Under the pieces are notes generated by a model that did no database searches, was not told where the DNA came from, and worked only from the letters and a program-made list of their open reading frames with translations. Position numbers and translations under genes: made by a program. A DNA stretch of 64,000 bases, taken from the NCBI RefSeq assembly GCF_024105735.1, contig NZ_JAAAML010000003.1, forward strand, positions 1 through 64,000, given 5' to 3'. Positions 20,313-37,963 of the stretch are shown here, one piece after another. This DNA is from Parahoeflea alexandrii. GTDB taxonomy: Bacteria > Pseudomonadota > Alphaproteobacteria > Rhizobiales > Rhizobiaceae. The number at the start of each line of letters is the position of its first letter. Position 1 is the stretch's first letter.

Positions 20313-20558
20313 ATGACCCAATCGACATTCCTTCGCCGCGACAAAGCGGCTGCGTACCTTCAAGAGCGCTTCGGCGCATACACTACCAACACACTTGCAA
20401 AGCTTGCCTGTGTTGGAGGCGGGCCGAGATTTCGCAAGCTTGGGCCGTTTCCCGTTTACTTGTCCGAAGACCTTGACGAGTGGGCGAAGTCACGCATGTC
20501 GCGCTCTGTTTCCAGCACATCGGAATTTGGTGCAAGCGACAGGCGGGAAACCGAATGA
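20313..20558 (+). CDS. AlpA/excisionase-like small HTH DNA-binding protein
   Basis: An 81-aa protein with a MerR-type winged HTH of the AlpA/excisionase class. FLRRDKAAAYLQERFGAYTTNTLAKLA is the HTH, GGGPRFRKLGPFPVYLSEDLDEWAKSRM the wing and the signature ...EDLDEWAKS end. The ATG at 20313 has AGGA 8 nt upstream; the ATG at 20304 overlaps that RBS. In P4-like elements AlpA activates int and promotes excision, and this gene lies between int and the primase as expected for such a regulator. Confidence 0.75.
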   Translation: MTQSTFLRRDKAAAYLQERFGAYTTNTLAKLACVGGGPRFRKLGPFPVYLSEDLDEWAKSRMSRSVSSTSEFGASDRRETE

Positions 20559-20616: not shown

Positions 20617-23600
20617 GTGAGCGCTGGGGGTGAAACGAGCGGGGCTGGCGATAGAGGGCACGGTGGCACCTCTCACCTCCATAGGGCTAGGCCAATTCAT
20701 GAACCGGGAATGCTTTCGCAGATTCAGCGTGGCGTTCGCGATGCTTTCCGGCTTGCATGCGTTCAAAATGGCTGGAGTCCGGTCCCGCTGCGGGCGTCAA
20801 GCCCCTTGGACAACGAAGGCACTTGGGCGCACGGAAGTAAGCTTCCATCGATTGTAGGCTGGCAAGCTGTCAGGCGTGTCACCGAAGATGACGTCAATGA
20901 ATGGCTGTCGGATGAATATTCGGCTGGGCTTGGGACGGGGGTAAGAACCGGGCTGCAAGTTTGCGACGATGGGAGCAACGTTTGGGTTCACACCATCGAC
21001 GTAGATGTGGACGGAATGCTTGGTTCCTTGAGAGGTGCACGGCTTGACGAGGCCGAAAAGAAATACGCGATTGTAAACAATGTGGTATTTCTCGCTCGGC
21101 AATTTCTGGGTGAGGACGTGATGATCCGGGAGGGCCGCTTTGGCCGCGTTACTATTGTTGCTATCAGTCGTGGCCTAGTCGATTTTGGAAATGCTCTTCA
21201 CTTTGGGTTGGACAGCGAAGGCCACCATGATCACATCGATTTCCGGTGTGCCGATGGACAGCAGATCGCCTGTCAGGGTGTCCACCCATTTGTATATCCC
21301 GATGGAACCCAACACTGCTACGCATGGATCGGCGATAGATCACCGGCAACGGTCAAGCTGACCGACGTTTGTTGTATTACGCAACAGCAGGCTACCGCGT
21401 TTGTAGATGCGCTAGCGGATCGGCTCAAGCCGTTTGGAATTACAAGGTCGCCGCCCCCCGGAACCGCCAACACCCAAACAGGTGACGCTATAGAGACGGG
21501 CGGCTCATACGATCCAATAATCAGTGCTAATAGCGGACTGATTACAGGGCGGCGCGATCTCTATATCCATAGAATCGCGGGTCAAAGTCTTTTCGTGTTG
21601 AGCATACAGCAGAGCAACCCGCCAAGCGCTGCGGATACGCCCCTCATTGACAGGGCAGCGAACGAGGCCTTTGCGAAGATTTCGACAAACTGCGAGATGG
21701 CGGACGCGGGCGGCAAGACCATAACGCTGGAACGTGTTCGAAAGGCCGTCGTGAAGGCTATCCCCAGAACCGTGCGCGACTGGAAGGCAAGGAAGGCATC
21801 CAGCGCCGATGGGGCCAGGATCTATCAGCAGAGCCAAAATGCACAGGCGGCAAAGTTGGCTGAACACGCAAAGCAGAAAGGATCCGAGGGGCAGTCGAGC
21901 GCATTCGATTATGTTCCACTGCCTCCTGCTGAAACACGCTCTCTCGCAGAATTGAGAAGTGTGCTCCATGACGGCATCAGCGGATTTATCATTCCGACCT
22001 TGGCCAACATGTATCTCACCTACGGGTTGGCAGAACGCAGGCTTCGTATTGCCCGCGCGCAAGCTGGGATTGGGAAAACGCACGCAACAATCGAAATTCT
22101 ACCTAAGGCCATTGTGGCTGACAGGGCGTTGGTTGCAGGGAGCCTTAAACGCTGGGAAAGTTGGCGGCTCCGTAGGGAGATTTTCAGAGCAGGGAACCCA
22201 GACGTCCGGTTTGAAGAAGCTGAACCAGATCGGGACATGCAACCCATGCGGTTCCTGTTCACAGCGCCGCCGCACAAGCTCTTAATGCAGACGGAAGACG
22301 GTCTGCTGAAATCCCTCAAGGAAGCCGGTGTCGATGCGTCTGTGCTGCGCTGGGTTTCGCAAGTCCACAAAGACCCGGTGAACCGTGACGGTGTGACCTA
22401 CCACCCATGCAGGATTCCTGAGGTGGTCATAAAGGTCAAGGAGCGTGGGGATTCGCCACTGCAAGCCTGCATGTCGAAGCAGTTTTTAAGCAAGGAGCAG
22501 TATGCTTGGTTTGTCGCCAACAAGGAAGCGGATCGGCAAAAAGCTCTTTATATGAAACTGGTGAGAATCGCAGCCGATAAAACCCGAGATCATGCGGAGA
22601 AGGTCTCGGAATTGCGTGGGGCCAATGTTCAACTTGAGAAGGCTCAGCGCGACGGCGATGTTGATGCAATCAAAGACGCGAAAGCAGAGGTCCGGAGGTG
22701 CACGGGCCCGTTTGAGCGAAGCAAGAATACCAAAGACCGGCTGGATAGACGCGTTCGCCAGACGCTGAAGAATCAGAGGATTGTGAAACGGCAAATGGCC
22801 ATCCATGGCGCACACAGCCAGGAATTTCATCCGTCGCTTGAGGATCGGATCAAAGGGCAAAAGGCCGTGCCGCCTCCTGTGGATGTCTTCGCTGGAAAGA
22901 AGCCACCGACTGGGACCATTTGCAACTGCCCATACGCGAAGACTTGCGCCTATGGCTCGCAATTGGCAATCGGGCGTGATGGGAAGCCAGGTCTGGAACT
23001 TGGCGAAATCCTAATCAACAAGCGCGACCCGGACATTTTGCTGGCCACCCACAACATGACCACGAAGCCCGGAGGGCATCTGATTGAGGCGCGAAAGCGC
23101 GGCATGAATATCGTAGATGAGAGCCTTTTAGATGTCAGCGTCAGCGGCGATCCGACAACCGTTGATATGGGGCAGCTTTCGCTCGTCGCGCCTCACTTGG
23201 CAGGGGCAATTCACCTCTATCTGCGTGCGTGCGGTGGCGAGCTAGGGGATAATTTTGGAAATATTAACGTGCCTTTTCATCGTGATCTTTTGCACGCATC
23301 CTATGATTGTCAGGATATGCACGTCGCAGGCGGGCCGCCAGAGAAAATATCGAGAAGCCGTGTCATATCAGAAATCCAAGACGGGTTGAAACGGTGCAAT
23401 GAGATTCTGAAGTCGCGGCCTTCATTCATCAAGGCACCCAACTGGAGTAATGAGATCCAAGACGCATCCGATTTGGCGTCTTTCGAAAGTGGAATGCTCC
23501 AGAGGCTCGCCCGTGTTCTTGTCGAGTTATTACGGTTCGCCGGAGGGAAACAACAGTTGTCAGCGGGTTTGACCATTGCGCGAAAATCCGGAGAAACTGG

Positions 23601-24909
23601 CGTCGCCTTAGAATTTCGAAGTCTCATGAGACTGCATCCAAGCTGGTCTGCTCGCACCACCACAAAGGGCGAAGACACAATCACGCACTGGTTTCCGATT
23701 TTGATGCTCTCCGCGACACCCGGAGAAGAACGACATCTGAGTGCCGCCACTGGAATAGCCGATATAGAGACGATAATTGACTTGCCGGATATCCCATTCA
23801 AGCAGGGAACGCGTGTTGTTTGTGTGTCTGGTGTTGGCGACAATCGAACCAAAATCCGCGAAGAGATTTCCGACAATTTCGAATTTCCTCGAAACGCAAA
23901 ACATGAGTGGTTTCGCAAGTTTATGGAGCGCGATTTGAAGGCTCACGGGAAAACTTACGACCCGGCCAAAGCTGGCTTGGTGACGACACTAGATGCGCTC
24001 CCCAAGATCAGAGACCATTACCTGGTGGAAGGCAGCGAGAACTATGTCACCTACGGCGGCGCTATCGGGAGCAACAAGCTTGAGGACGTGCCGGTGCTGG
24101 TCATATATGGACGCCACGGGCCGCGCGACGATGACATTATACGCCTGTCAGAGCTGATATTCGGTAAGCGCGTCGAGGAGCCACTGACTGCGCTAGAGTT
24201 GTCGATGCTTCCCGCCGTTGATGAAAACGGCAACACGATTGGGCGTCCTGAGCCATATGTTGTGCGTGACGAATACGTAGACCTGAACAATGTGGATGTG
24301 ATTGCTGAACTTACTGCCCTTGGGGCCACCCGGTCTGGTCGTATGTTTTTTCAGCGGTTCCAAGTTAAGCATGAAACACGGGGCGGTATCGTTTCCCCAT
24401 ATGTGCGAGAACACCATGATCCCGAAATAGCTGCTATATCTATTCACTTTTTTGAGGACGCAACCCATCAAGATGCGATTTATCGTGCCCGCCTCGGCAA
24501 TCGAAAAGATGGTCACGAATGTACGGTTTACGCCTTCACGGACATGTATCTCCCGCAAGCAACAGAACTTCACAAGCTTGATGATTTGAAGACGCAGGAT
24601 GACCTAACCCGCACGGGGGTATTCTGCATATATTGGCGCTGGCTGGTTGCAACAAGACCTGATCAGTTCAAGGACAAAAAGAGCGTCGATGCGAAGTTAG
24701 ACACGCGGTGGCACGCTGTGCCGTCTGCTCCAGACGGCTGGGTAAGGCACAACATCTGTTTTGATGGGAGCAGCGAGCCATTTGAGGTTTACGTTGACCC
24801 GTCAATCGACGACCACGAAGCTGCAATTCGGGCGGAAGTAGCAGAATTATATGTGATATTCACAAGCCGAACCAAGCGCGGCGCGAAGCTCAATGTGCCC
24901 TTTGAATAA
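20617..24909 (+). CDS. Putative PrimPol-helicase replication protein of the element
   Basis: A 1,430-aa protein. I start at the GTG at 20617 because GAGG lies 7 nt upstream and the earlier frame overlaps the HTH gene. Residues ~45-270 look like a bifunctional primase-polymerase domain: SKLPSIVGWQAV, GLGTGVRTG, the acidic D128-V-D130 of IDVDVDG and HIDFRCADGQQIACQGVHP with D208. A P-loop AGIGKT is at 483-488. D834-E835 in NIVDESLLD may be Walker B and LSATP near 1031-1035 resembles an SF2 helicase motif. CNCPYAKTC (769-777) is a Cys cluster that could bind Zn or Fe-S. A charged coiled-coil-like stretch lies near 650-690. It probably replicates the excised element. Domain calls are from motifs only. 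Confidence 0.7.
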   Translation: MSAGGETSGAGDRGHGGTSHLHRARPIHEPGMLSQIQRGVRDAFRLACVQNGWSPVPLRASSPLDNEGTWAHGSKLPSIVGWQAVRRVTEDDVNEWLSDEYSAGLGTGVRTGLQVCDDGSNVWVHTIDVDVDGMLGSLRGARLDEAEKKYAIVNNVVFLARQFLGEDVMIREGRFGRVTIVAISRGLVDFGNALHFGLDSEGHHDHIDFRCADGQQIACQGVHPFVYPDGTQHCYAWIGDRSPATVKLTDVCCITQQQATAFVDALADRLKPFGITRSPPPGTANTQTGDAIETGGSYDPIISANSGLITGRRDLYIHRIAGQSLFVLSIQQSNPPSAADTPLIDRAANEAFAKISTNCEMADAGGKTITLERVRKAVVKAIPRTVRDWKARKASSADGARIYQQSQNAQAAKLAEHAKQKGSEGQSSAFDYVPLPPAETRSLAELRSVLHDGISGFIIPTLANMYLTYGLAERRLRIARAQAGIGKTHATIEILPKAIVADRALVAGSLKRWESWRLRREIFRAGNPDVRFEEAEPDRDMQPMRFLFTAPPHKLLMQTEDGLLKSLKEAGVDASVLRWVSQVHKDPVNRDGVTYHPCRIPEVVIKVKERGDSPLQACMSKQFLSKEQYAWFVANKEADRQKALYMKLVRIAADKTRDHAEKVSELRGANVQLEKAQRDGDVDAIKDAKAEVRRCTGPFERSKNTKDRLDRRVRQTLKNQRIVKRQMAIHGAHSQEFHPSLEDRIKGQKAVPPPVDVFAGKKPPTGTICNCPYAKTCAYGSQLAIGRDGKPGLELGEILINKRDPDILLATHNMTTKPGGHLIEARKRGMNIVDESLLDVSVSGDPTTVDMGQLSLVAPHLAGAIHLYLRACGGELGDNFGNINVPFHRDLLHASYDCQDMHVAGGPPEKISRSRVISEIQDGLKRCNEILKSRPSFIKAPNWSNEIQDASDLASFESGMLQRLARVLVELLRFAGGKQQLSAGLTIARKSGETGVALEFRSLMRLHPSWSARTTTKGEDTITHWFPILMLSATPGEERHLSAATGIADIETIIDLPDIPFKQGTRVVCVSGVGDNRTKIREEISDNFEFPRNAKHEWFRKFMERDLKAHGKTYDPAKAGLVTTLDALPKIRDHYLVEGSENYVTYGGAIGSNKLEDVPVLVIYGRHGPRDDDIIRLSELIFGKRVEEPLTALELSMLPAVDENGNTIGRPEPYVVRDEYVDLNNVDVIAELTALGATRSGRMFFQRFQVKHETRGGIVSPYVREHHDPEIAAISIHFFEDATHQDAIYRARLGNRKDGHECTVYAFTDMYLPQATELHKLDDLKTQDDLTRTGVFCIYWRWLVATRPDQFKDKKSVDAKLDTRWHAVPSAPDGWVRHNICFDGSSEPFEVYVDPSIDDHEAAIRAEVAELYVIFTSRTKRGAKLNVPFE

Positions 24910-24926
24910 TATTCGGGGCTGCGTGT

Positions 24927-24991
24927 CTCAACTCCCTAGCCGTGATCATGATAAAGGGGCTATATATCGTGGGCACGGCTAGGGAGTGACA
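24927..24991 (+). repeat. 65-bp hairpin repeat, copy 1
   Basis: Lies 18 bp after the PrimPol-helicase stop. The arms ACTCCCTAGCCGTG (24931-24944) and CACGGCTAGGGAGT (24974-24987) pair perfectly. Inside, CATGAT (24947-24952) pairs with ATCGTG (24966-24971) with one T-G. Copy 2 at 34005-34069 differs at only 2 of 65 positions. Homology continues more weakly on the right side to about 25080. No T-run follows the stem directly. Confidence 0.85.
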
Positions 24992-25208
24992 TTTGCCCTT
25001 TTCGTTAGAGTTTTTTGTCCGCTGCAATGACGAGAGCGCCAGTTAAAGGAGACAGGGCCGAACAACACCGAAGTTGTGTTGTTCGTGACGGGATCGAACC
25101 ACAATGAGTGCACACGTTGGCGCGGTGCAGGGTAAGATCCGGTGGGCTCATGGAATGGGCGAGCGTTGAAGTGGTTTGGAGGCCATTCACTCGGCCATTT
25201 CAAATTGC

Positions 25209-25283
25209 TCAATAAAGAAATCTACCTTCGCCTGTTCGCGCAGCTTGCACATGATGTTCAACCATGGAGTAGCGCGCGCTCAT
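25209..25283 (-). other. Possible small ORF or gene remnant after the HEPN gene
   Basis: An ATG overlapping the HEPN gene stop (ATGA) opens a 24-codon frame. A second frame over the same DNA (25187-25252) reads MCKLREQAKVDFFIEQFEMAE. The two together look like the frameshifted end of a lost gene or non-coding spacer. No family is recognised. Confidence 0.2.
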
Positions 25284-26026
25284 GCGGCCTCCTCTGCCTC
25301 GTCTGGCGGGTATAGGTCTGCGAGTCTCTGGTGGAGTGATTGGACCGCACCGAAGCCGATCTCGTCACAGACATCCCGAATGTCGTAGTCGCGGCAAAAG
25401 GCGATGTCGCTGGCCGACATATAGAACTCTTTCACCAGCACCTCTTCGATCTGCTGGGCATCGTCGGTGTATTCGCGTTCCTCGGCATCTTGCGAGGCGA
25501 TCAGGAAAGCCTTGTAGCCCTCGCCGATGGTCGGGGCGCTGTGGCGCTGGATTTCCTCTACCGTGCGAAAGACGTCGCGCACCTTCCGGGCCAGTTCGTC
25601 TTCGGAGTTGAAAAAGATGTTGCCGTTGGCGTGGGCGGTGTCGTTGCGTTCGTCCACCAGCTTGGCATAGGTGCCGATCTTGGCGTTGTCGCACTGGATC
25701 AGCTTGAGGAACCGTAACACCGACCGCTCATTCACCGCGCTGAACACGAAGGGCGAGGTCGCATCCATCAGGTTTTTCTCAACATCCTTGCTGAACCCAA
25801 CCATTGCTGTCTCGAAGGGGCCAGGGCGGATCAGCCTGATCTGCCAGATGTTGAAATAGACAAAGCTCATCACCAGCATGTGGTAAGCGAGGAAGGCGAA
25901 CTGGTATTTGCCATGCTCGACATTGGTGTCGAAGGCCTCCCAGAGGAAGCGGACATAATCGCGCTCCTTGGTCGTGCGATAGGACAGCGGCAGATAGGTT
26001 TCCAGCTGGGCGGCCTCTTCAATCAT
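25280..26026 (-). CDS. HEPN-motif protein in the type I R-M operon
   Basis: A 248-aa mostly helical protein overlapping the hsdMS stop by 4 nt, so tightly co-expressed with it. Residues 123-135 read LVDERNDTAHANG, an R-x4-H motif (Arg127, His132) in the setting typical of HEPN-fold ribonucleases, with a hydrophobic helical N-terminal half (FAFLAYHMLVMSFVYFN). No ATPase or nuclease domain of other type is seen. HEPN nucleases such as PrrC are known guards of type I R-M systems, and this small protein might play an analogous part. It could equally be an assembly or modulatory subunit. Function is inferred from one motif and operon position. Confidence 0.65.
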   Translation of the reverse strand: MIEEAAQLETYLPLSYRTTKERDYVRFLWEAFDTNVEHGKYQFAFLAYHMLVMSFVYFNIWQIRLIRPGPFETAMVGFSKDVEKNLMDATSPFVFSAVNERSVLRFLKLIQCDNAKIGTYAKLVDERNDTAHANGNIFFNSEDELARKVRDVFRTVEEIQRHSAPTIGEGYKAFLIASQDAEEREYTDDAQQIEEVLVKEFYMSASDIAFCRDYDIRDVCDEIGFGAVQSLHQRLADLYPPDEAEEAA

Positions 26027-28611
26027 GTGGCCCTCTCACCCTTGGCCACGCCCCAGACCCGGGCGATAGCGGCATCGATCTTTTTCTCGAAGCGAGCGAT
26101 CAGGTCACGATTGCCATTGACAAGGGCTTGCTCGGCTTCGATTTCGGCAACGATGGCACTTTGCATGTCAATGGATGGCAGAGGGACTCGAAACTCTCTC
26201 AGGGCTTTAAGGGAAACTGTCTTCTGCGCCACGCCAGTTGCGGCTTCATCTCCCTGTTTCTTCCCCGCCGGTGAGCGTAGGTAATGCAACAGATAGCCGC
26301 TCATAACTTGGTTCGAAGGACGCAAGAGTGCGATGTGGCGTTGGAAGCAGAACTCGCGGCTGCCAATCACTGGAACGACGACACCGTATGAACCAGTAAC
26401 GGAATATAGCAAGTCGCCAGCAATCGGCCGCCGCGTCTCCTTCAGCGCGTTGAAATATTCACGAGGGACGAAGAATGTCTTTTCGAATTTAACGCCATCG
26501 GTTTCGTGCAGATTGGAAATCGTCACGAATGGTATGCCCTCGTCTGCTTTAGGCGGAGGCTGGTGGTCGCCGTCTGTGATGGATGTGCAGATGTCGCCCA
26601 TCGCAGCCACAGGCCAGTCAGGGTCAACAGGGATGTGTGGGCGGTAGTTGTCGATGACGGCTCGGGCACCGTCGATGACACGCTGATAGCCCTCGATCTC
26701 GGCCACTATCTCGCGCTGCACCTCAATCGGTGGGAGGGGAATTTCAAAGCCTTCGACGAATGAACGGGGAACCCGTTGCAGTCCCCCGGTTCCCGTCATT
26801 TGTGGAATAGCTTTGGCGCGGAAGACTTCGTGCGTCACGCAGCGATAAACCCATTCGGCAAGCACGTTTTCACAGGGCCGCAGTACGTAAAATTCGCTGG
26901 ACCCGAAGCCGACGCCGTTGCGCAAATTGCGCGCGATGCCCGCCTTCCCATTCTCAAAGCATGGAGTGACCTTCGCCAAAAGAACATCACCGTTAGCGAA
27001 ATAGGTATAGCTCGCGCCGACCTCAGCCAGCGTCTTGACCTCTTTGGCTTCAAAGCCGATACGCCACTCGTTCAAGTCAGCCATAGGTACAAAAGAAACT
27101 TCGGTTTCAGGCAGGAGGTCCGAGAGTTCCTTCTTGGGAGGGTTTAACGTGCACACCTCGGCGATACGGACACGTGGGATTTCGTGCTCTTCTGCCGTCG
27201 CAAGTTTATAACGTTCGCCACTCAGGTTGTAGTCGCCACCTTCTGCAAGCTCTTCCCGAGAAACGGCAAACCCAAGTTCACTTTCCAGCTCCTCACCGAC
27301 GCCAGCCCGTGCCGCCAACAACCACGCCCCGAGCGCGGCTTTTACCTGCGCCAGTTGCGATCCCTTCACCGCCTTGCGCTGTGCGCCAAGGGCGAAGCCG
27401 TCATTCTCGATCTTGAAGAAGGCGACGTGCTGACTGGCCTTGGCCACCGCCCGGTCGAGGATCAGGATAGACGTCTTGACGCCCGAATAGGGATTGAACA
27501 CGCCTGCGGGCAGCGAGATGACGGCAGCAAGGTAGCCATCCACGAGCATCTTGCGCAGCGCCACATAGGCGCTCTGGCTTTGGAAGATGATGCCCTCGGG
27601 CACAATGATGGCGGCGCGACCCTGTGGCGTCAGGTGCTCGGCCATGTAGTCGACAAACAACACTTCGCTGCGCTTCGACTGCACCTGAAACCGGGTGTGC
27701 GGCTTGATCCCGCCCTTTGGCGACATGAAAGGCGGATTAGCAAGGATGACATCGGCCATCTCCGTCCATTTCTCCTCGCTGGTCAACGTGTCGTATTCCT
27801 CGACCTTCGGATCAGCGAAACCGTGCAGATAGAGGTTCACAAGGCTGAGGCGCACCATGTCGGGCGAAATATCGTAGCCCTTGATGTTGCGCGCCAGTTG
27901 TTTGCGCTCTTCGGGCGTCAGCAGATCACCGGGATAGCGCAGCGGGCTTTCCAGCGCCTGCTCGGCGGCATCCGTTTCCTGCCCCTTGCCGTTGCCGTTT
28001 GCCACATGAGACGAGTTGGCCTTGAGGATATGCTTGTAGGCCGAAATCAGAAAACCCGCCGTGCCACAAGCCGGGTCCATGATGATTTCGGACTTCTTCG
28101 GGTCGATGATCTCGACCATGAAATCGATGATGTGGCGCGGCGTGCGGAATTGGCCTGCGTCGCCTTGGCTGCCGAGAACCGACAGCAGGTATTCAAACGC
28201 ATCACCGAGCTTTTCGCTGTGGTCATAGGTGAAGTGGTTGATCTCGCGTAGGAAGCTTCGCAACGTCTCGGGGTCGCGATAAGGCAGATAGGCGTTGCGA
28301 AAGATCGACCGGAACAGCTCTGGCAACTGGTCGTTCTCTACCATCTTGGTCAGTGCTTCGGAGTAGGAGTTGAGCATTTCCTGACCCGACACGCCCGGCG
28401 CGACCAGCCTTGCCCAGCGGTAGCGTTCATAGTCTTTGGTGAAGAATTTCCGTTCGCCGCCCAGCTCCTCGGACTCGAGGTCCATGTCGTCCATGAATTT
28501 GTAGATCAATGCGACCGTGATCTGTTCGACCTGGCTTTTCGGGTCGGGAACCTTGCCCACGAGGATATCGCGGCAGGTGTCGATACGGCGCTTGGTGTCA
28601 GTGTCGAGCAT
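26023..28611 (-). CDS. hsdM: Type I R-M methyltransferase-specificity fusion (HsdM-HsdS)
   Basis: An 862-aa protein fusing an N6-adenine methyltransferase with a specificity subunit. HsdM N-terminal helices occupy ~1-150. SAM motif I DPACGTAGFL is at 179-188 and catalytic motif IV NPPF at 292-295. From about residue 470 there are two HsdS target-recognition domains: TRD1 begins IPRVRIAEVCTLNPP and ends with the coiled region VQREIVAEIEGYQRVIDGAR; TRD2 begins WPVAAMGDICTSITDGDHQPPP and ends with MQSAIVAEIEAEQALVNGNRDLIARFEKKI. The second gene of the operon, 12 nt after hsdR. Methylates and specifies the recognition site, and directs HsdR. Normal systems encode M and S separately. Confidence 0.9.
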   Translation of the reverse strand: MLDTDTKRRIDTCRDILVGKVPDPKSQVEQITVALIYKFMDDMDLESEELGGERKFFTKDYERYRWARLVAPGVSGQEMLNSYSEALTKMVENDQLPELFRSIFRNAYLPYRDPETLRSFLREINHFTYDHSEKLGDAFEYLLSVLGSQGDAGQFRTPRHIIDFMVEIIDPKKSEIIMDPACGTAGFLISAYKHILKANSSHVANGNGKGQETDAAEQALESPLRYPGDLLTPEERKQLARNIKGYDISPDMVRLSLVNLYLHGFADPKVEEYDTLTSEEKWTEMADVILANPPFMSPKGGIKPHTRFQVQSKRSEVLFVDYMAEHLTPQGRAAIIVPEGIIFQSQSAYVALRKMLVDGYLAAVISLPAGVFNPYSGVKTSILILDRAVAKASQHVAFFKIENDGFALGAQRKAVKGSQLAQVKAALGAWLLAARAGVGEELESELGFAVSREELAEGGDYNLSGERYKLATAEEHEIPRVRIAEVCTLNPPKKELSDLLPETEVSFVPMADLNEWRIGFEAKEVKTLAEVGASYTYFANGDVLLAKVTPCFENGKAGIARNLRNGVGFGSSEFYVLRPCENVLAEWVYRCVTHEVFRAKAIPQMTGTGGLQRVPRSFVEGFEIPLPPIEVQREIVAEIEGYQRVIDGARAVIDNYRPHIPVDPDWPVAAMGDICTSITDGDHQPPPKADEGIPFVTISNLHETDGVKFEKTFFVPREYFNALKETRRPIAGDLLYSVTGSYGVVVPVIGSREFCFQRHIALLRPSNQVMSGYLLHYLRSPAGKKQGDEAATGVAQKTVSLKALREFRVPLPSIDMQSAIVAEIEAEQALVNGNRDLIARFEKKIDAAIARVWGVAKGERAT

Positions 28612-28623
28612 GCGGGTCTTTCA

Positions 28624-31170
28624 TCAAAGGAACGGGTTCAGGGACACATAGTCCTTGATATATTCGGGGATGCGCCTGCGCCATGCGGCTGGCACCTCCT
28701 TGAGGTCGCGAGTCGTGAAGGTCGGGTTTACATTGAGGTCTCCGAAATGTCCCGCGTCAACCAAGGCGCGGACCTTGGCGTCACGGATATAGGCTTCGAA
28801 GAAATAGCGCATCTGGGCAACGCGGTCGGCTTCCTCGGGCTTTTGGTCAAGCAGAAACTTCTGGAATTCATCGTCGATCAGTTCGGCCTTGCTCTTGAAT
28901 TTGGGAATGAAGCCGAACGCCTTTTCGATCAATTCGCGGATCGTGATGCGACGATCAACACCAGCCGCGCGGCGCAGGCGTTCCAGGTTGAAATATTCAT
29001 CGGGCTTGTCGAACAGTTCCTCAATGACATGCCGGGTCGCCGTCTCCCAATTCTGCTGTTCAACCAGTTCGGCAAGCCGCTTGTCGGACCGCGCCATGTC
29101 CTCGAATTTCTTGAAAAGCTCCCGGTCGACGCGCATTCCCTCCGGCCCGATCTGCTGCTCGAACTGGTAGACAACCTGATCGGGCTCGAGGAACTCGTAA
29201 AAAGCCGCGGCGGTGGTCGTTGTCGTTGTTGTGTCGCCTCCGGAAGTCAGCGGCATTGCGGCGGGCTTGGGAAGCTTGAGCTCTTGATCGTACTGAAATT
29301 CCTCTTCGAAAAATTCGCAGTTGGCGAAGAAATCGAACAGGCGGTAGGCCGTTTTCTGAACATCGCCAAGCGCTGTCTTCTGCGCCGGATCGAACATTTC
29401 CTCGGAGAAATTGTGCTTGCGGGTGCCACGGCCCTTCATCTGGACAAAATCAGACGGTGAGAAAATCGGCCGCATCAGCGCAAGGTTCAACAGATCGGGG
29501 CAATCGTAGCCTGTGGTCATCATGCCAACCGTCACGCACACCCGCGCCTTGCTGGTGCGGTAATTCTCCAATCCGTCACTGTGGCCAGCCAGATTGTTGT
29601 TGGCAAAGTTGATTGTCATCTTCTGTGCATGGGTGACGTCGCTGGTCACCTGCATGGCGAAATCGGATTGGTAGCGGCCCGGCCAGAGCTGATCGGCCAA
29701 TGTGTTCAGGATCTGTGTGATCTTTGCAGCATGATTTTGGCTGACGGCAAAGGCAATGGTCTTGCCGAACTCGCCCGAGATCGGATCCCGCATGCCATGT
29801 TCAAGCAACGCCCGGCAGAAGACTTGATTGGTCGCCTCCGCAAAGAAGCGCTTCTCGAAATCGCGGCCAGCGAAGGCTTCCTTCAGCTCGGTTCCGTCCT
29901 CGGCGGTCGTTTCGACCGTGAACCCCTCTTCTGACAGCAGTTGGGTGGTGACGCCTGTTCGCGCATCGACGACATAAGGATTGATCAGGAAGCCATCACG
30001 CACGCCATCCAGCAGCGAATAGCGATAGGTTGGATCGCCAGACTCGCAGCCGAAGGTCTTGTAGGTATCCAGCATCATCCGCCGTTCGGACTCGCGCGGA
30101 TCTCTTTCGGAGGTTTTTCCTTTCACGGATTGCTTGAGATAATCCTTGGGCGTTGCGGTGAGCCCCAGCTTGTAGCCGATGAAATATTCAAAGACCGCGC
30201 GCGCGTTGCCGCCAATCGACCTGTGGGCTTCATCCGAGATTACCAGATCGAAATCTGTCGGTGAAAACAAACGGCGGTACTTGTCGTTGAAGAGAAGGGA
30301 CTGGACCGTGGTGACAACAATGTCCGCCTTGCGCCAGTCGTCTCTTTGTTCCTTGTAGATGATCGAGGTGAAATCATTCTTGAGAAGCGCCTTGAATGCC
30401 TTGTCCGCCTGGGTTTCTAGCTCCAGCCGGTCGACAAGAAACAGAACTCGCTTGGCATTGCGCGTTTTTAGAAAGAGCTTGACCACAGCGGCTGACGTGA
30501 GCGTTTTTCCGGTTCCGGTCGCCATCTCGAAAAGGAAACGGGTGGCGCCTTTTTTCGCTTCCTCTTGGATACGTTCAATTGCGCGCTGCTGGTACTTGCG
30601 GAGAAACCGCAGCTTCTGCTTTTCGATGAATGCCGGTCGCTCGGCTTCGTTCTTCCAGGCCGCCTCATTGGCATAACCGGGCATCTGCGTAAGGGCGATA
30701 AAGTCCAGCCCTACCGGCTCAGCCGACAATCTGCCTGCATTGGGCTCGAAGGCGTAGTGGTTCTTGATGTCATCGGGACCCGGGAATTTCGAAATGACGC
30801 TGGGATTGCCCTGCTCAAGATCCCAAAGAAAATGCATGATGCCATTGCTGAGGATCACGAAACGGGCGTTCTGCGAACGCGCATATTTGCGGGCCTGCTC
30901 TTTGGCAGAGAGCGGATGCTTTTCCTCAGATTTTGCTTCCAGAACGATGAGCGGTTTGCCGTCCGCGTCCAGCAACAGGAAATCGATAAAGCCATTTTTG
31001 GCTTTCTCGAAATTTGTCCCGAGCGCTTCAATGTCGGTGTTTTTTAGCTTCACGTTCGGTTCAAGAACGATATTCGCCGGACCGCGCTCGCTTTCGAAAA
31101 ACCGCCAGCCTGCTTCCTCGAGCAACTTGTTGATCTTGATCCGTGCGGTCGCTTCTTTGTGGGCCGACAA
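28624..31170 (-). CDS. hsdR: Type I restriction endonuclease subunit R
   Basis: About 848 aa. The PD-(D/E)xK nuclease has Asp69 (FIDFLLLD) and E84-A-K86 (IVLEAKS), numbered from the longer TTG start at 31188. The SF2 translocase has the P-loop ATGTGKT (223-229), DEAH box (319-322, VISDEAHRS) and GLTATP. I prefer the TTG at 31170, which follows AGAGGA by 6 nt; no ATG fits. A helical C-terminal part contacts the methylase. It is shorter than the classic ~1,000-1,100-aa HsdR, as in some compact type I families. First gene of the operon hsdR-hsdMS-HEPN, transcribed away from the GmrSD-like gene. Confidence 0.9.
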   Translation of the reverse strand: MSAHKEATARIKINKLLEEAGWRFFESERGPANIVLEPNVKLKNTDIEALGTNFEKAKNGFIDFLLLDADGKPLIVLEAKSEEKHPLSAKEQARKYARSQNARFVILSNGIMHFLWDLEQGNPSVISKFPGPDDIKNHYAFEPNAGRLSAEPVGLDFIALTQMPGYANEAAWKNEAERPAFIEKQKLRFLRKYQQRAIERIQEEAKKGATRFLFEMATGTGKTLTSAAVVKLFLKTRNAKRVLFLVDRLELETQADKAFKALLKNDFTSIIYKEQRDDWRKADIVVTTVQSLLFNDKYRRLFSPTDFDLVISDEAHRSIGGNARAVFEYFIGYKLGLTATPKDYLKQSVKGKTSERDPRESERRMMLDTYKTFGCESGDPTYRYSLLDGVRDGFLINPYVVDARTGVTTQLLSEEGFTVETTAEDGTELKEAFAGRDFEKRFFAEATNQVFCRALLEHGMRDPISGEFGKTIAFAVSQNHAAKITQILNTLADQLWPGRYQSDFAMQVTSDVTHAQKMTINFANNNLAGHSDGLENYRTSKARVCVTVGMMTTGYDCPDLLNLALMRPIFSPSDFVQMKGRGTRKHNFSEEMFDPAQKTALGDVQKTAYRLFDFFANCEFFEEEFQYDQELKLPKPAAMPLTSGGDTTTTTTTAAAFYEFLEPDQVVYQFEQQIGPEGMRVDRELFKKFEDMARSDKRLAELVEQQNWETATRHVIEELFDKPDEYFNLERLRRAAGVDRRITIRELIEKAFGFIPKFKSKAELIDDEFQKFLLDQKPEEADRVAQMRYFFEAYIRDAKVRALVDAGHFGDLNVNPTFTTRDLKEVPAAWRRRIPEYIKDYVSLNPFL

Positions 31171-31188
31171 AGCTCGTCCTCTGCTCAA

Positions 31189-31833
31189 ACCGGGCGTGAA
31201 ATCAATACCCTAGAGTTGCATAGAGGATTTGGACCGAGTTGTGTAGGTGGTGTTAAGCGAATGCGGCGATATGGGGTGTGTCGAGAGTGCTTCGGCGGTG
31301 ATCCCGAACCAACAAATCCTTGGCGTTTCCTGCCTCAAAGCAACTGGTCGGTTGGTGTTGATTGGCCTGCTTTGGGTGGCGACAGGCATCCGGTATTCTG
31401 AAGGGTAAAGCCTATGCGTATAGGTCGGCACAGTGAAGCGGTGGTTGAACCATGCAAGGGGTATGCAGCCCAAATTCCTGGTCATCAGGCGCTACGGGAG
31501 GGCTGGGCGGCGCATAGGTCACCGGGCAAGGGCGGCGCGTGTCAATCGGCAGGAAATTGAACAGCTGGGCAAGGCGGCTGGTCGCTATGATCTGGTCAAA
31601 ATGAGGTGGGCAATGGTGGCAGAAGCTCATTCGGACAAGCATTGACATGGCTTTGAGCCTATTAGCCTCCTTCGGTATATGGCTTGTCATGGTGTTTTTG
31701 GTCCATAGTCGACCTTTGTGGGGACTGTGCAATGAATGAAGCACAGCGCCCTCTGGGAGATAGACAAAGTACCCTGCCTTGTTGCATTCGTCACATCACT
31801 ACCTCTAATAGCCATAACTCTTCAGGAGACTTC
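31189..31833. other. Divergent promoter region between hsdR and the GmrSD-like gene
   Basis: About 640 bp with no convincing gene. Short open frames (for example 31433-31645, +) have no RBS and no recognisable motif. It must hold the promoters of both divergent defence genes. I see no clear palindromic operator. Confidence 0.45.
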
Positions 31834-33930
31834 ATGATTGCCAACCAACGCCTTTTTCCCAAAATCATCAATGGAGCATCCCAGTTTGTAATTCCTGTTT
31901 TCCAACGTGACTATAGCTGGTCCGAAGAGAACTGCCGGCAGCTTTGGAAGGACATCGTCACGGTCGCTGAAGCCCCCGTGGAACGCGGCCATTTCATCGG
32001 ATCGGTCGTTTATATCCAGACAGGGGATAGCTCAGCGGGCTTTACCCGGTGGTTGTTAATTGACGGCCAGCAGCGAGTCACGACGCTTACCTTGCTGCTT
32101 ACCGCGCTGCGCGACCAAATTCGCGAGACTGGGTGGACGGGGAGCGAGGATGGACCGACCGCAAAGCGGATCGAGGCGTATTTTCTGCGTAATTTGCAGG
32201 AGGAGGGTGAGCGCGAAATCAAGCTTAAGCTTCGCCGTCATGACGACGCCACCCTTCAGGCGTTGATCGCCGGGGATAGCCATCCGGCAAATCCTTCGCC
32301 GCGGATTCGCGACAATTACGAGCTGTTCCGGGACCTTCTACAAGATTCTGACCCCGAGTTGATCTATCGAGGCATCAACCGCCTTCTCCTTGTTGATGTG
32401 ACTCTCGAGCGCGGTATCGATGATCCCCAATTGATTTTTGAAAGCCTCAATTCGACTGGAGTTGATCTTAGCCCTTCTGATCTGATTCGAAATTTCATCC
32501 TTATGAGTTTGCCAGAGAAGGATCAGACCCGCCTTTACAATACTTATTGGGACCAAATAGAGGTCCTATTCCGCGGCAGTGAGCGCGTTTTCGACAACTT
32601 TATCCGTGATTTCCTTGCTCTACGCTCCCGATCAACCAAACTTGAACGGTCCGACAGAGTCTATGCGGCCTTCCGCCGTGTATTCAGTAATATCGGGGAC
32701 AACACCGAAAAACTGGAGGATTTGCTAAAGGAACTCCTTAGGCGCGCGCGCCAATACGCTGCTTTCGCTATCGGCGGCGGAACCGATGAATTGGCAAGGG
32801 CTTTTGCTGACCTTCGACGCCTTGGTGACGTACCGGCCATTCTGATAATGCGTCTTCTCGAGGTGCACGAAACTTCGAGAACCTTGAGCGCAGCAGAGCT
32901 TTTGGAGGCGACCCGACTTTTGGAAAGCTATCTTTTGCGCCGTGCCGTCATCGGGGCACAGACACGGGGCTATGGGCTCGAATTTGCCAAACTGGCCTAT
33001 CGGATCGACGAAAACCATCCGCTTCCTTCGCTGAAGGCTGCGTTAACGCGGCTGCCTACGTCATATGCCTTCCCAGAAAATTTGGCTTTCGAACATGCGC
33101 TTCTTGAAGGAGATATTTATCATAAGAGAGTCTGCTCCCATCTCCTTGAGGCGCTCGAAAACCGTGGCAGCAGGGAGCAAAGTGACACGAGTGACTATAG
33201 CATCGAGCATATTCTGCCCCAAAATGAAAATCTAAATGAGGCATGGCGGACGATGCTCGGTGATGACTGGCGGCAGGTCCAAAAGACCTGGTTGCATCGA
33301 CTCGGAAACCTAACCCTCACCGGGTACAACAGTACCTACAGTGATAAAGCCCTCCACACGAAGCAGACTATCCCCAAGGGATTCAAAGAGAGTTCAGTCC
33401 GCCTCAATCAAGATGTTCGAGATGCGTCCTGCTGGACTTCACATGAGATCCGGGAACGTGGTCAGCGGCTCGCCAAACGAGCTTTGGAAATATGGCCACG
33501 TTTAAATGCAGACCCTACCATGATTAGGGCCATGGAGACGGCAGAACTCCAAGCTCGAGCTGCTCGACGGAGCGTCGATGAGGTGCCGATGACTGAAGAG
33601 GCGATGGAAATGTTTAAGGTCCTACAGTCCCGGCTTCGAGCTGCCTTTCCTGACGCCATCGAGATGGCCGAAACTCGATCGATCAGCTATCACGACCCAG
33701 AGTTCTTTCTCGAGGTGATCCCACGCAAACGCGGCCTCGGCCTCCTCATAGCCATCGATTACAACGAGGTCGGGGAATTAGAGGGGGCCGCACAAGACAC
33801 ATCTGACTACACTTTCATTGTCAATGCCTCATATCAGGGCGGCGTGCTGATCAATGTGCGCGATGAAGCACTGATCGACAGAGCGGTCGTAATTGCAAGT
33901 CGGGCGCGGAACCTTCTTTCTTCAGGATAA
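31834..33930 (+). CDS. DUF262/DUF1524 protein, GmrSD-like type IV restriction nuclease
   Basis: A 698-aa single-chain GmrSD-type protein. The N-terminal DUF262 (ParB/Srx-like NTPase) domain holds FQRDYSWSEENCRQLWKDI and the signature DGQQR at 77-81. The DUF1524 HNH domain has IEHILPQNE (His459) followed by WLHRLGNLTLTGYNSTYSDKAL. A C-terminal domain of about 110 aa (EVIPRKRGLGLLIAID..., DUF5655-like) follows. GmrSD enzymes cut phage DNA with modified (glucosylated hydroxymethyl) cytosines. Start is the ATG at 31834 after CAGGAGAC; the longer frame to 31684 has no RBS. It complements the divergent type I R-M system, which such modifications can block. Confidence 0.87.
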   Translation: MIANQRLFPKIINGASQFVIPVFQRDYSWSEENCRQLWKDIVTVAEAPVERGHFIGSVVYIQTGDSSAGFTRWLLIDGQQRVTTLTLLLTALRDQIRETGWTGSEDGPTAKRIEAYFLRNLQEEGEREIKLKLRRHDDATLQALIAGDSHPANPSPRIRDNYELFRDLLQDSDPELIYRGINRLLLVDVTLERGIDDPQLIFESLNSTGVDLSPSDLIRNFILMSLPEKDQTRLYNTYWDQIEVLFRGSERVFDNFIRDFLALRSRSTKLERSDRVYAAFRRVFSNIGDNTEKLEDLLKELLRRARQYAAFAIGGGTDELARAFADLRRLGDVPAILIMRLLEVHETSRTLSAAELLEATRLLESYLLRRAVIGAQTRGYGLEFAKLAYRIDENHPLPSLKAALTRLPTSYAFPENLAFEHALLEGDIYHKRVCSHLLEALENRGSREQSDTSDYSIEHILPQNENLNEAWRTMLGDDWRQVQKTWLHRLGNLTLTGYNSTYSDKALHTKQTIPKGFKESSVRLNQDVRDASCWTSHEIRERGQRLAKRALEIWPRLNADPTMIRAMETAELQARAARRSVDEVPMTEEAMEMFKVLQSRLRAAFPDAIEMAETRSISYHDPEFFLEVIPRKRGLGLLIAIDYNEVGELEGAAQDTSDYTFIVNASYQGGVLINVRDEALIDRAVVIASRARNLLSSG

Positions 33931-34277
33931 ATAATTGATAATATTATCATATTTATGTTCGTGCGTATTGTCCTCCACTGCAGGAGGTGGTGGGCTGTTG
34001 TTGCCTCAACTCCTTAGCCGTGATCACGATAAAGGGGCTATATATCGTGGGCACGGCTAGGGAGTGACAATTGGCCTTTTCGTCGAGGCTTTTATTTTTT
34101 TGCCATTTCAATGACGAGCGCGCTCAGCAACCGAGATGAAGCCGCACAACATCGATGCTGAGGTGATCAGCGGCGAAGCTTATTGATCGGCGATGAACTT
34201 AATGCGCGCATAAATGGTGAAATAATAGCGACGACCCGTTCGGCCTGCTAATACATGGACGGCGCGCTGGCCACCAC
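33931..34277. other. Convergent intergenic region holding hairpin copy 2
   Basis: Between the convergent GmrSD-like and DUF3644-like genes. Apart from the 65-bp hairpin and its weaker right-hand homology to about 34160 (including a T7 run and CAATGACGAG shared with copy 1), no gene is seen. A short palindrome CCACTGCAGGAGGTGG-like sequence lies at about 33974-33990. Confidence 0.5.
34005..34069 (+). repeat. 65-bp hairpin repeat, copy 2
   Basis: Matches copy 1 (24927-24991) at 63 of 65 positions. The arms ACTCCTTAGCCGTG and CACGGCTAGGGAGT pair with one T-G at 34014, and the inner arms CACGAT and ATCGTG pair perfectly. Both changes relative to copy 1 are C/T exchanges opposite G, so each copy keeps the full stem if read as + strand RNA. 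It lies 75 bp after the GmrSD-like stop. Confidence 0.85.
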
Positions 34278-35324
34278 TTAGTTGTTCCGTTTGGTCCATA
34301 GTTCGGCCATGTCTATACCCGGAAGCGCGTCCTGCATTCGGCGCAGAGCATTGTCTGAGAAACACGGAATTTTCTGCGCACCGAATTCGAAAATGTGGCA
34401 GCAGTCAGCATCATCGTCAATGCCGAGATGAGCGCGTAGCACCTTCGCCTTTGGTGCGCTGAGGCCAATCTTCTCAGCAAGTTCCGTCCGCTGCATATGG
34501 AACTTCTTCCGCAGGTCGACCTCTCGGACAGCCGCTGAAGCTGTGGGATCATCGCCACCGACGTAGTGGACCGGAGCGCCTTGCTTTTTCGTGAAGTGAA
34601 CAACCAAGTTGACGCCTTCACCCTCCGTAGTCGTTCCTACCATAGCGAGGCGCGGGAAAACTGCGGTGAACTCGGTGCCGCCCCGCATTGCTCTCTCAAT
34701 ACGGTCTATGTCGCGCTCTGATATCTCAACCTCATCGGTTACAATCGCTTCCATCGCAAGCATTGTACGAATCCTCGCGCGTGCCTCGTCGCGAGCGCGA
34801 CGTCCTGGCTGGAGTAACTCATTGATGTAGGTGAACTCCTCGTTCACGAGGAACTCGAAGTCGCCCGGCGGCTTGGTTGAGATCGGCAGTACGCGTGGCG
34901 GGATGTATTCATGCAGCGTAACGCCCAGCTTGCGGTTTAAGTAGGCGTCAAAAGCGGTGATGAGAGCCCGCATCTGCATGTAGAGCAGATCCTCGGAAAC
35001 GTAGACAAACCAATGTTGGGCGGCGTCGCGCTGGGCGTCGATCGCACGCATGATGCCAGCCTCCTCAGCGGTTAGCTGATGATGCGCGAAACACAAGCCG
35101 AGGCAGCGCTCGAAGCCGATCGCCCTACCGGTCCCCTTGTCGAAGACCTTTGCTCTGCCCTGCACGAGCACAGCCTTAAGCAGCATCTCACAGGCGTGCT
35201 GGGAATGCATCAAAACCATCGTGACGCGACCGGCGTCGTCGTAGCTGTTGAAGGCCGCCATGGCCGTCCGAAGGGACTCGATGGCTTTTGTCTTAAGCGT
35301 TCGAGCATCGCGTATCAGTTTCAT
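34278..35324 (-). CDS. DUF3644-like HEPN/HTH protein
   Basis: A 348-aa protein from the ATG at 35324, which follows GGGGGGCGAG (a TTG 12 nt upstream is the alternative). The N-terminal ~135 aa resemble DUF3644: AMAAFNSYDDAGRVTMVLMHSQHACEMLLKAVLVQ and, at residues 96-106, IDAQRDAAQHW with an HEPN-type R-x4-H (Arg99, His104). The C-terminal ~70 aa form a winged HTH-like module (LRKKFHMQRTELAEKIGLSAPKAKVLRAHLGI ... HIFEFGAQKIPCFSDNALRRMQDAL). Such HEPN proteins are common in defence islands as putative RNases. The function here is not proven, and a regulator role is also possible. Confidence 0.6.
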   Translation of the reverse strand: MKLIRDARTLKTKAIESLRTAMAAFNSYDDAGRVTMVLMHSQHACEMLLKAVLVQGRAKVFDKGTGRAIGFERCLGLCFAHHQLTAEEAGIMRAIDAQRDAAQHWFVYVSEDLLYMQMRALITAFDAYLNRKLGVTLHEYIPPRVLPISTKPPGDFEFLVNEEFTYINELLQPGRRARDEARARIRTMLAMEAIVTDEVEISERDIDRIERAMRGGTEFTAVFPRLAMVGTTTEGEGVNLVVHFTKKQGAPVHYVGGDDPTASAAVREVDLRKKFHMQRTELAEKIGLSAPKAKVLRAHLGIDDDADCCHIFEFGAQKIPCFSDNALRRMQDALPGIDMAELWTKRNN

Positions 35325-35533
35325 CTCGCCCCCCAATTGTTCAATTCAGGGTTATGTTAACCCAATACACTTGCCTCTGGTAGCATGAGACAGAGCCGGG
35401 TAGTGTCTACTCGATCAATGACCGCCTTGCGCCTTCAGTTGGGACACCCAGTCAAGCCTTGTTTTCACCCAAACGTCGAAGTTTCATTAGATACCCGCTT
35501 TAAGGAGTTCGGGCGTGAAGATTCAGCAATGGG

Positions 35534-36466
35534 TTAGGATCGGAGTACGGCTTCGATCTTCTTCCATTCAGGAATCTTGTCGAACTGGTATTTTCGTAGT
35601 CCCGGCAGTTTAGTGAAAATGTCGAAAGCGTGTAGCACCCTCAAGATCATCAGGGGCGCGTTGTACGATGCCATTACGATGCCTTGAAGGGCTTGCTTCC
35701 GCTCCGCTATCATAGCGTCCAGAACTGCTCTCTCTTGAAGAGGGTCCACAATCCAAGCATCGTTGTCAGGAACGAAGGTCACCCTCACAGATTCTGCTGC
35801 GGGATGAACGATCTCACAGAGATCTGCGTAAAACGCTTTTACGCCTACGATCTTCATCCGCTCGACCATGTTAATGTATTGGAAGGCCTGCATCGCCTTA
35901 TGGCTGTCTGGGGCCGTCTCGGTCTTGCCGACCTTCCTAGCGTGCGTAAAATGAATGAACGAGTTCTCAAGGTCCTCGGAGAGGATCATTGTCTCTCCTG
36001 CCTTGCCTGAAATCTCCGCCTTGACGGCATCTTTTATTCCAGCAAGTGTAAGCGCGACGGGATTTAGGCTGTGACCGATGTCGCCTGCAGATTCGATAAG
36101 GCTTCTGCAGGCTGAGGCGCAACCATAGAGGCTCCCCGCGTCATGCTCGCGGATTGCAACCTGGATCCATCTCGTCGTTCGGAATATGGATGCAACAGAT
36201 GACATATGGGCCCGGCATAGCATCTCGGTCCAGTACACCCGCCCGGTGTATTCCCGGCCTGTATGCTCATCACGAGACTTCCGTTCGAACTCCGAGATGT
36301 CTTCGAACGTATATCGCTCTTTGATCAGATCATGCGCGATGTCGTTGACAATGCGACCGTATATTTCCGTGCTTTTGCCGAATAATGCGGACATTTTTTT
36401 AGTGTCCAGCTCAAGTGGGGAGTCCGAAGACGAGCTAGCGGCCATGTTGCTATCTATACCTTTCAC
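35534..36466 (-). CDS. Hypothetical helical protein, possible defence gene
   Basis: A 310-aa, largely helical protein of no family I can name with confidence. It has a charged N terminus, a central CASACRSLIESAGDIGHSLNP block and FYADLCEIVHPAAESVRV near residues 217-234. This YxxLCxxVHP pattern is seen in several uncharacterised proteins near defence genes. An alternative start is the Met at residue 8. It stands alone, in the same direction as the DUF3644-like gene and ~200 bp upstream of it, inside the cargo zone of the element. Confidence 0.5.
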   Translation of the reverse strand: MKGIDSNMAASSSSDSPLELDTKKMSALFGKSTEIYGRIVNDIAHDLIKERYTFEDISEFERKSRDEHTGREYTGRVYWTEMLCRAHMSSVASIFRTTRWIQVAIREHDAGSLYGCASACRSLIESAGDIGHSLNPVALTLAGIKDAVKAEISGKAGETMILSEDLENSFIHFTHARKVGKTETAPDSHKAMQAFQYINMVERMKIVGVKAFYADLCEIVHPAAESVRVTFVPDNDAWIVDPLQERAVLDAMIAERKQALQGIVMASYNAPLMILRVLHAFDIFTKLPGLRKYQFDKIPEWKKIEAVLRS

Positions 36467-37142
36467 AAGTTTCGAGCGGCTGATCAGACTACCCTAGCAG
36501 ATCGCTTTGTGAAGGTGGTCAGACGGCTGATCTAGAACCAGGTGCTTTCGCCCATTTCGGTCATTTATGTCCGACGCAGCGAACTTCCACTCCGCCCGAA
36601 GCGGAGTTCGTTTCATGTGACCGATTATGGAGGCAGGCTTTGATGCGGTACCGCTGATCGCGCTGACCTTGGCGTGTTGTTTGCCTCAAGACGAGTAGAA
36701 GGGTCAACGGTGTTTGGCGATCGGCGGCGGTGACTATTCGGTGTCAGGTATTTTCGACCAGCCAGAAGTGGTTCGATCTGCTCGCCCGCATCATGCGAGG
36801 GAATTTGAGTATTCACTTAAAGGCGATATGAGCCACAACGCGCTGTACGGCTGCGCATGACAGGTGGTGCGGTAGTATTATGCCGCACACGACTTGAGAC
36901 AGAAAATTTGCGAAAATTCCATGTATACCTGACGTCTTGAGCAGAAAATGGAACAAAACTGAACCCATTTTCGCGATCTTTCGCAATCTACCAAAATGTT
37001 TCAAATTTCTAGCACCTTCCTCAAAAGACACCGGAGACAAGCGACCCAAAATGGTGCAGCGCTCAGGGCACTGGTGTCGCGCTTGAAAATTCAGATCGAG
37101 TCACGGCGCAGAGTCACAACCATCAAACGCCGAGAAATAGCC
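36467..37142. other. Gene-poor stretch in the element
   Basis: About 680 bp without a convincing gene, AT-rich from 36850 on. It holds a hairpin (ACTCCGC-CCGAA-GCGGAGT, 36589-36607) and probably the promoter of the two attR-proximal genes. The open frame upstream of 37143 (from 36996) is basic and low in complexity and lacks an RBS, so I leave it out of the gene. Confidence 0.4.
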
Positions 37143-37910
37143 ATGGAACTACCATCCGATCCAACTGACAACGCCGAACCGTCTGCCCCTGCTGGCATGA
37201 GCGGTATCCCTGACCACTTGGTTTCCGGCCTTGCAGGTGGCGGCATGTTCACAGTCAAGCCGTCCGACCGCACCATCCAACTTAAGATTCTGGCTGACCG
37301 TCGCCGCCTCGCTGAACAGTCCCAATGGACCGCCGATCAAATCGCGGCGGTGACCGGGCCGAACGGCGATCCAACGGCACTTGGCGCTGCGAAGGCAGGT
37401 CGCTTGCAAGCACTCGAAGCTCAACGGATAAAACTCGAAGCTGAGAACTACCGCCTGACCTGTCTTGACCTGCAAACACGGGCCGGTGACCAGGAACGCG
37501 AACGGCGCAGCGAAGCGAAGAACAAAGCCAATGTCGTCATGCACGGTCTCGTGGATAATGCTCTTGCCACCATCGCAGCCATCTCGATCAACCCGATGGC
37601 GTCGGCATCACAGTTGGCGGCAAACCGCCTGATCTTGAGCATCGCCGTTGGCGAAGAATTTGCCGCAACCATATCGCACATGGTCGATTTCTCGCATTGC
37701 GAAACGACGGCGCAACGCATGTCTTATGTGACTGACCTTTATTCGCGTGGCCTGATCTCAGCTGATGAGCATTCTGTGTTGTTCAAGGGCCTTGCGGCAG
37801 AGTCGGGCGTGATCAAAGCAGAATTGGCTGACAGATTGGCTCAGTTGGAGCTATCCGAAAGCGAAATGAATGCCGCCGACAGAGCCCGCACGATCGAGCA
37901 TCGTGTCTGA
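37143..37910 (+). CDS. Hypothetical protein A of the attR-proximal pair
   Basis: A 255-aa protein with no recognised family, starting at ATG 37143 with a weak GAGAAA RBS (the frame is open to 36996). It has an acidic, Pro-rich start and then a long charged helix (TALGAAKAGRLQALEAQRIKLEAENYRL). A helical C-terminal half follows (VVMHGLVDNALATIAAISINPMASASQLAANRLIL). The layout faintly resembles phage small terminase (Nu1-like) proteins, but no motif settles this. It lies 53 bp upstream of hypothetical protein B in the same direction; both adjoin attR, a place where satellite elements often keep conserved genes. Confidence 0.55.
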   Translation: MELPSDPTDNAEPSAPAGMSGIPDHLVSGLAGGGMFTVKPSDRTIQLKILADRRRLAEQSQWTADQIAAVTGPNGDPTALGAAKAGRLQALEAQRIKLEAENYRLTCLDLQTRAGDQERERRSEAKNKANVVMHGLVDNALATIAAISINPMASASQLAANRLILSIAVGEEFAATISHMVDFSHCETTAQRMSYVTDLYSRGLISADEHSVLFKGLAAESGVIKAELADRLAQLELSESEMNAADRARTIEHRV

Positions 37911-37963
37911 GATACTGCCCCGGCATCCCCTGCCGGGTGCCAACTACTCAACGGAGAACGCTC

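Follow-up and report, generated by a model that had tools for sequence, protein, structure and literature searches.

Plasmid pRN1 depends for its replication on a stem-loop of about 100 nt located 54 bp 3′ of its PrimPol-helicase gene (PMC4234260). The stem-loop works when moved and tolerates many point changes, is intolerant of truncation or loop loss, and has beside it a terminator that the plasmid can do without; the rep gene of phage BIP-1 is likewise followed by a similar stem-loop. The same paper describes the stem-loop of the pRN plasmids as less conserved than its flanks, notes that direct evidence for its being the origin is lacking, and gives P4 an alpha protein with a Toprim primase (PMC4234260). 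In plasmid RSF1010 the primase RepB′ recognises and binds hairpin sites (PMC4434180). We analysed 64,000 nt of Parahoeflea alexandrii (positions 1 to 64,000 of contig NZ_JAAAML010000003.1; hereafter the window), in which a 65-bp hairpin occurs in two direct copies, one directly 3′ of a primase-helicase gene and the other 3′ of a GmrSD gene, behind an anti-phage gene block. Both copies sit in an integrase island of about 21 kb at tRNA-Arg(CCG). The pair is real and conserved, and has so far been seen only in the present island.

A conserved hairpin pair

The hairpin copies lie at 24927-24991 and 34005-34069 in the same orientation, 9,078 bp apart from start to start, and are identical at 63/65 positions. 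Both are intergenic with convergent neighbours. Re-alignment bore out the coordinates, identity and convergent setting given in the original prediction and changed some of its measurements. The 65-bp core stood, within a slightly longer repeat of 82 nt at 94% identity (24924-25005 and 34002-34083, both on the + strand) which comprises the stem (24931-24987 in copy 1 and 34009-34065 in copy 2) and a conserved tail. The outer stem is 14 bp long as predicted and the inner stem 7 bp rather than 6 bp, separated by a 2x2 internal loop and capped by an 11-nt apical loop. From the PrimPol-helicase stop we measured 17 nt to the repeat (24927) and 21 nt to the stem, in place of the 18 bp given earlier. 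As RNA and as DNA, each copy on each strand folded better than 200/200 shuffles, with RNA fold z of -6.2 and -5.6 for the two copies. Hairpins of score at least 13 numbered 17 per 744 kb in a sample of the host genome, two of them these copies; the sample was the window plus 34 stretches, handled with a purpose-made, crude open reading frame (ORF) caller and hairpin scorer. Between convergent ORFs, over the 94 convergent gaps counted, only the two copies and the hairpins of L090 and L108 reached this score.

The sequence to the right of copy 1 (25006-25107) aligns to 34084-34186 with 70/95 aligned columns identical (gaps left out) vs 63/65 in the hairpin (Fisher p 6e-5). This flank is homologous overall, as 0/500 shuffles reached its score. 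Its outer part (beyond 25085 and 34169) is weak, with 17/500 shuffles as good, and the left side of the repeat has no homology above chance level (36/500 shuffles as good). The higher conservation extends to the apical loop, upholding the earlier claim that the hairpin itself is conserved beyond a weaker flank. The hairpin sequence has thus been kept constant or homogenised between the copies. Because the right flank has diverged, the pair is not a fresh duplication, and the recent simple duplication that the original prediction had set against itself does not fit.

Both differences between the copies are single, one-sided C/T exchanges opposite G. As stated earlier, they leave one G-U per copy if the + strand is transcribed and A-C mismatches on the - strand. 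The weight then placed on changes that preserve pairing falls away, because 22/42 transitions at paired stem positions keep the pair anyway on either strand, and two of two pair-keeping changes are expected about one time in four. The two changes are no evidence of covariation or of selection for pairing, in a comparison of two sequences only.

The host genome holds the two copies only. A DNA search at E 0.001 found the hairpin in 0/17 genus, 0/393 family and 0/296 order genomes (the draws overlap) and none in plasmid and phage records. Intergenic region 1 had no match in plasmid records, and the one match of intergenic region 2 was 46 bases long and inside thiC. The stem-pattern scan of the species genome collection returned 0 stretches, two scans of viral contigs were empty, and a covariance model (R2) had no further match in 680 kb of the host genome. 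The absence of further copies, which the original prediction had named as counting against it, was thus what the genome, plasmid, phage and viral-contig searches found. In a limited search of a partial literature collection, no paper described a hairpin pair of this kind.

Four matches were taken as chance. Two viral matches (L007 and L008) had little in common with the hairpin beyond the searched letters. Model R2 gave a weak match in L063 (E 0.087, 27 sources searched) alone among 26 related loci, and one in G025 (E 0.076) alone among 100 other family genomes; to the eye, the G025 match looks like coding sequence.

A possible replication site behind the PrimPol-helicase

The gene ahead of copy 1 (20710-24909, + strand) encodes a probable PrimPol with a superfamily 2 (SF2)-like helicase; its start is probably at 20710, in a frame open from TTG at 20395. 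The helicase motifs were located by eye and by script and the primase motifs by eye, the latter being what we take to be DxD, hDxR and GVHP. This protein of about 1400 amino acids (aa) is without a relative in the collections searched: 0/296 family genomes at E 1e-30, 0/384 class genomes at E 1e-8, and none in plasmids, phages, viral contigs or the species genome collection. Distant relatives of the hairpin or of the PrimPol-helicase may exist, because the pattern and peptide scans were strict.

Our preferred reading, held tentatively and at somewhat less than an even chance, is that the island replicates itself with the hairpin as a cis-acting DNA site for its PrimPol-helicase. Copy 1 would be a natural candidate for a site of the pRN1 kind, by likeness of position and shape and not of sequence: it is a stem-loop directly 3′ of a PrimPol-helicase gene, which copy 2 is not. 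On this reading the integrase would excise the island, the PrimPol-helicase would recognise and open the copy 1 stem-loop (24931-24987) behind its own gene, and DNA synthesis would be primed at the opened site, as proposed for pRN1. Copy 2 may be a second such site, a duplicate, or the trace of a circle of the restriction-modification (R-M) and GmrSD genes that recombined there. Where replication begins in bacterial PrimPol islands seems, to our knowledge, to be largely unmapped; should the start indeed be marked by a stem-loop 3′ of the PrimPol gene, the origins of such islands would be legible from sequence.

The idea of a PrimPol site gains indirect support from the pRN1 precedent and from the dyads that follow PrimPol genes within one family of related islands. 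Integrase relatives at E 1e-60 occurred in 22/199 family genomes, the window's own included, and regions from 16/21 other integrase-bearing genomes made up a sister-island set, in which L059, L060, L061 and L074 adjoin the same tRNA-Arg(CCG). The protein scan took in one or two large proteins from each of 11/16 integrase-related loci, and four of the 11 (L059, L065, L066 and L074) had a PrimPol-, NrS-1- or D5-type rep. Dyads with an arm score of at least 11, a threshold chosen after the scores were seen, lay within 250 bp 3′ of rep in 7/13 loci (the window, L066, L118, L119, L120, L121 and L122). The count omits L123 (a partial match with no stop in the locus) as well as L060-L064 and L067-L073, where either no PrimPol-type rep could be recognised or none was scanned for. 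Such dyads followed 15/517 host-genome ORFs, and 5/238 where the following gap was at least 150 bp, these controls coming from a single genome that differs in base composition.

The dyads of L066 and L118-L122 resemble the window in having long inverted arms right behind the PrimPol stop. They differ from it in sequence, which is unrelated, in their 41-52 nt loops, in arms that are repeated and GC-rich, and in having an AT-rich stretch inside or close by. GC-rich arms with an AT-rich stretch are a trait of many origins, and the DNA 3′ of the PrimPol-DUF3987 gene in these loci is a candidate origin of those elements. In L066 (13695-13769), and in L118-L122 within 250 bp past the rep stop, this DNA combines an AT-rich stretch with inverted repeats of the CCCACCCTT type. 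The L066 rep has relatives in phages and plasmids, too distant to be of use. L059 has a long hairpin 555 bp 3′ of its rep gene.

Besides the late choice of threshold and the single-genome controls, several points weigh against a replication role. Without the window, which prompted the test, the dyad count is 6/12, and the other six loci are one family, one of four rep lineages outside the window; L059 with L124-L126, L065 and L074 have dyad scores of only 6-9. As no relative of the hairpin or of the PrimPol was found, the two are tied by position alone. The PrimPol domain scores 20.5 bits vs a Pfam cut-off of 22.8, and the structure model of the N-terminus (20710-21765) is poor (pLDDT, the predicted local distance difference test, 41) and gives no usable fold. 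Copy 2 follows the GmrSD gene and no rep gene. Nowhere else in the island do the hairpin arms occur again, and neither intergenic region contains a repeated 8-mer. The helicase of pRN1 belongs to SF3 whilst that of the island is SF2-like by motifs, and the pattern of conservation described for the pRN plasmids is reversed here, where the stem-loop is conserved above its flanks. Finally, the T-run or terminator found after each copy fits the end of an mRNA equally well.

Other possible roles for the hairpin, and the defence cargo

A structured mRNA 3′ end is accordingly the chief alternative. A stable hairpin would close the PrimPol-helicase and GmrSD transcripts and block 3′ exonucleases, and the terminator would shield the convergent defence gene. 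We consider this doubtful when taken alone, and nearly as good as the replication-site reading. It is consistent with both copies following a + strand stop codon between convergent genes, with TTTTTT after copy 1 (25011-25016, +), and with the intrinsic-terminator-like stem and T-run after copy 2 (34073-34101, +), which begins 8 nt past the end of the long stem. Sister islands L060 and L061 also carry another long hairpin some 40 and 60 nt past their last + strand ORF. The long stem itself is not a canonical intrinsic terminator, however: GACA rather than a T-run adjoins it in both copies, leaving no U-tract directly behind it, and no stem-and-T-run terminator was predicted after copy 1. Moreover, the loop and both arms are kept (63/65) beyond the needs of stem pairing, homology between the copies continues beyond the T-run, and such hairpins are rare, only 4 of the 17 in the 744-kb sample with its 94 convergent gaps lying between convergent ORFs.

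The hairpin common to L060 (10098-10167) and L061 (10747-10807) has the arm GAAGGCGGCTCCGAGGAAA, followed by TATCTCTA-type repeats, and lies about 155-170 bp inside the tRNA end. The right ends of L059 and L074 have no such long hairpin.

The genes between and beside the copies bear on two further explanations. To the right of copy 1 lie a 248-aa, unclassified and weakly HEPN-like protein that adjoins the R-M genes (25280-26026, -; RiboL-PSP-HEPN 17.8 bits vs a cut-off of 28.4, with RNDTAH read by eye), a fused type I methylase-specificity protein (HsdM-HsdS; 26023-28611, -), an HsdR-like type I restriction subunit (28624-31188, -) and a GmrSD-type protein (31684-33930, +). PDC-S19 (34278-35336, -) follows copy 2; it was assigned by PADLOC, matches Pfam DUF3644 below cut-off and has RDAAQH by eye. 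DUF3644 is listed as a HEPN family in PMC3710099. The trio of HsdR, HsdMS and HEPN-like genes also occurs on plasmid pPZ02 of Paracoccus zhejiangensis, where the HEPN-like protein is 88.5% identical. The three blastn pieces shared by pPZ02 and the window all fall within 25293-31158, with none beyond, and a Rhizobium plasmid matches the window at PDC-S19 over 34285-35331 only. Neither the R-M trio in L109 nor PDC-S19 in L013 has the hairpin beside it. Because these relatives of the cargo lack it, the hairpin is part of the island or of the module joins, and not of the cargo.

The hairpin unit may alternatively mark a module boundary, as a common homology for the entry and exit of modules: a circle bearing the R-M and GmrSD genes and one hairpin unit, recombining with the unit behind the PrimPol gene, would leave two direct copies. 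The direct orientation of the copies at 9,078 bp fits this idea, which the original prediction had also raised, and the Paracoccus and Rhizobium homologies stop at genes, implying that modules moved as units. The cassette between the copies has no recognised recombinase gene, though, and the unit was found in no other island. The 25/95 aligned flank columns that differ speak against a recent event, and the idea explains the history of the hairpin rather than its conservation. We regard a boundary role as unlikely. A long shot, too, is a combination in which a pRN1-like stem-loop origin was duplicated and brackets a swappable R-M/GmrSD cassette, being PrimPol-helicase start and module-exchange join in one. 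If that were true, the same hairpin site would also mark the place of defence-gene exchange here.

A + strand small RNA, made up of the long 5′ hairpin and a terminator and possibly acting on an island gene such as the HEPN-like neighbours, seems quite improbable. The RNA fold z values given above and the terminator-like site past copy 2 are in its favour, as is the RxxxxH motif, read by eye, in both right-hand neighbours. An AbiF system with RNA-based regulation is reportedly on record, and we counted it on the same side. By contrast, a simple sigma-70 consensus scan found no + strand promoter-like site just upstream of either copy, and Rfam 15 at gathering score has no family at the hairpins, its matches in the window being the tRNA and RF02514 only. 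Both neighbours also occur without the hairpin in L109 and L013, and for this reason an RNA partner of the HEPN-like proteins was dropped as the leading interpretation.

The island beside known systems

The island is bordered on the left by attL (18190-18237), a 48-bp repeat of the 3′ half of tRNA-Arg(CCG), and on the right by attR (39120-39167, -), inside the tRNA gene at 39120-39196. Just within these ends lies a 22-bp repeat (GGTGTTAGCC twice; 18362-18383 and 39052-39073), a putative integrase arm site. GC content in 1-kb steps is 0.52-0.59 within the island vs 0.59-0.61 outside. One candidate for an empty site, G010, supports the right border only, since its match covers the tRNA and right flank but, to the left, nothing beyond the 58-bp tRNA end. 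The gene order is integrase, small regulator, PrimPol with SF2-like helicase, hairpin 1, HEPN-like, HsdMS and HsdR genes (-), GmrSD (+), hairpin 2, PDC-S19 (-), three genes without a family, and the tRNA. These three genes (35534-38950; 310, 304 and 337 aa) had no match in Pfam, NCBIfam, PHROGs or PADLOC. The tyrosine integrase (18396-19724, +) has Arm-DNA-bind_3 and Phage_integrase domains. The 84-aa regulator (20304-20558, +) is HTH_17/AlpA-like through its homologues: three of the eight aligned match HTH_17 and one matches AlpA, the window protein itself matching neither. A CopG-like parallel to pRN1 orf56, suggested by a weak ribbon-helix-helix match (E 0.046), was ruled out on these homologues. 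Elsewhere in the window, the Rfam match to RF02514 (5′ ureB small RNA; 56838-57126, -, 125.7 bits) may merely mirror conserved urease coding sequence.

A P4-like satellite island has a tRNA-directed integrase, an AlpA-type regulator, a primase-helicase and cargo. Here the integrase and att repeats are clear, the AlpA/HTH_17 character is seen through homologues only, and the primase is below cut-off. P4 has two separated cis sites, ori and crr. The present locus is similar in having two separated cis sites, if the hairpins are such, in an integrase satellite, and differs in that the P4 origin is of the repeat type and its primase a Toprim.

The comparison with RSF1010 likewise holds in part. 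The hairpin resembles ssiA and ssiB in being tens of bases long with a GTG near its 3′ side; each copy contains three GTG, a common word. Each strand of RSF1010 has a single ssi site, its origin is of the iteron type and its primase is a separate protein, whereas both island copies share one strand at a distance of 9 kb, and iterons were not found. For pRN1 the differences are that it is an archaeal plasmid with one stem-loop, and ours a bacterial integrated island with two. The shared features are of arrangement: as at pRN1 orf904, a long stem-loop lies just 3′ of the PrimPol-helicase gene with a terminator near, and a small DNA-binding regulator gene, here HTH_17/AlpA-like, precedes the PrimPol gene.

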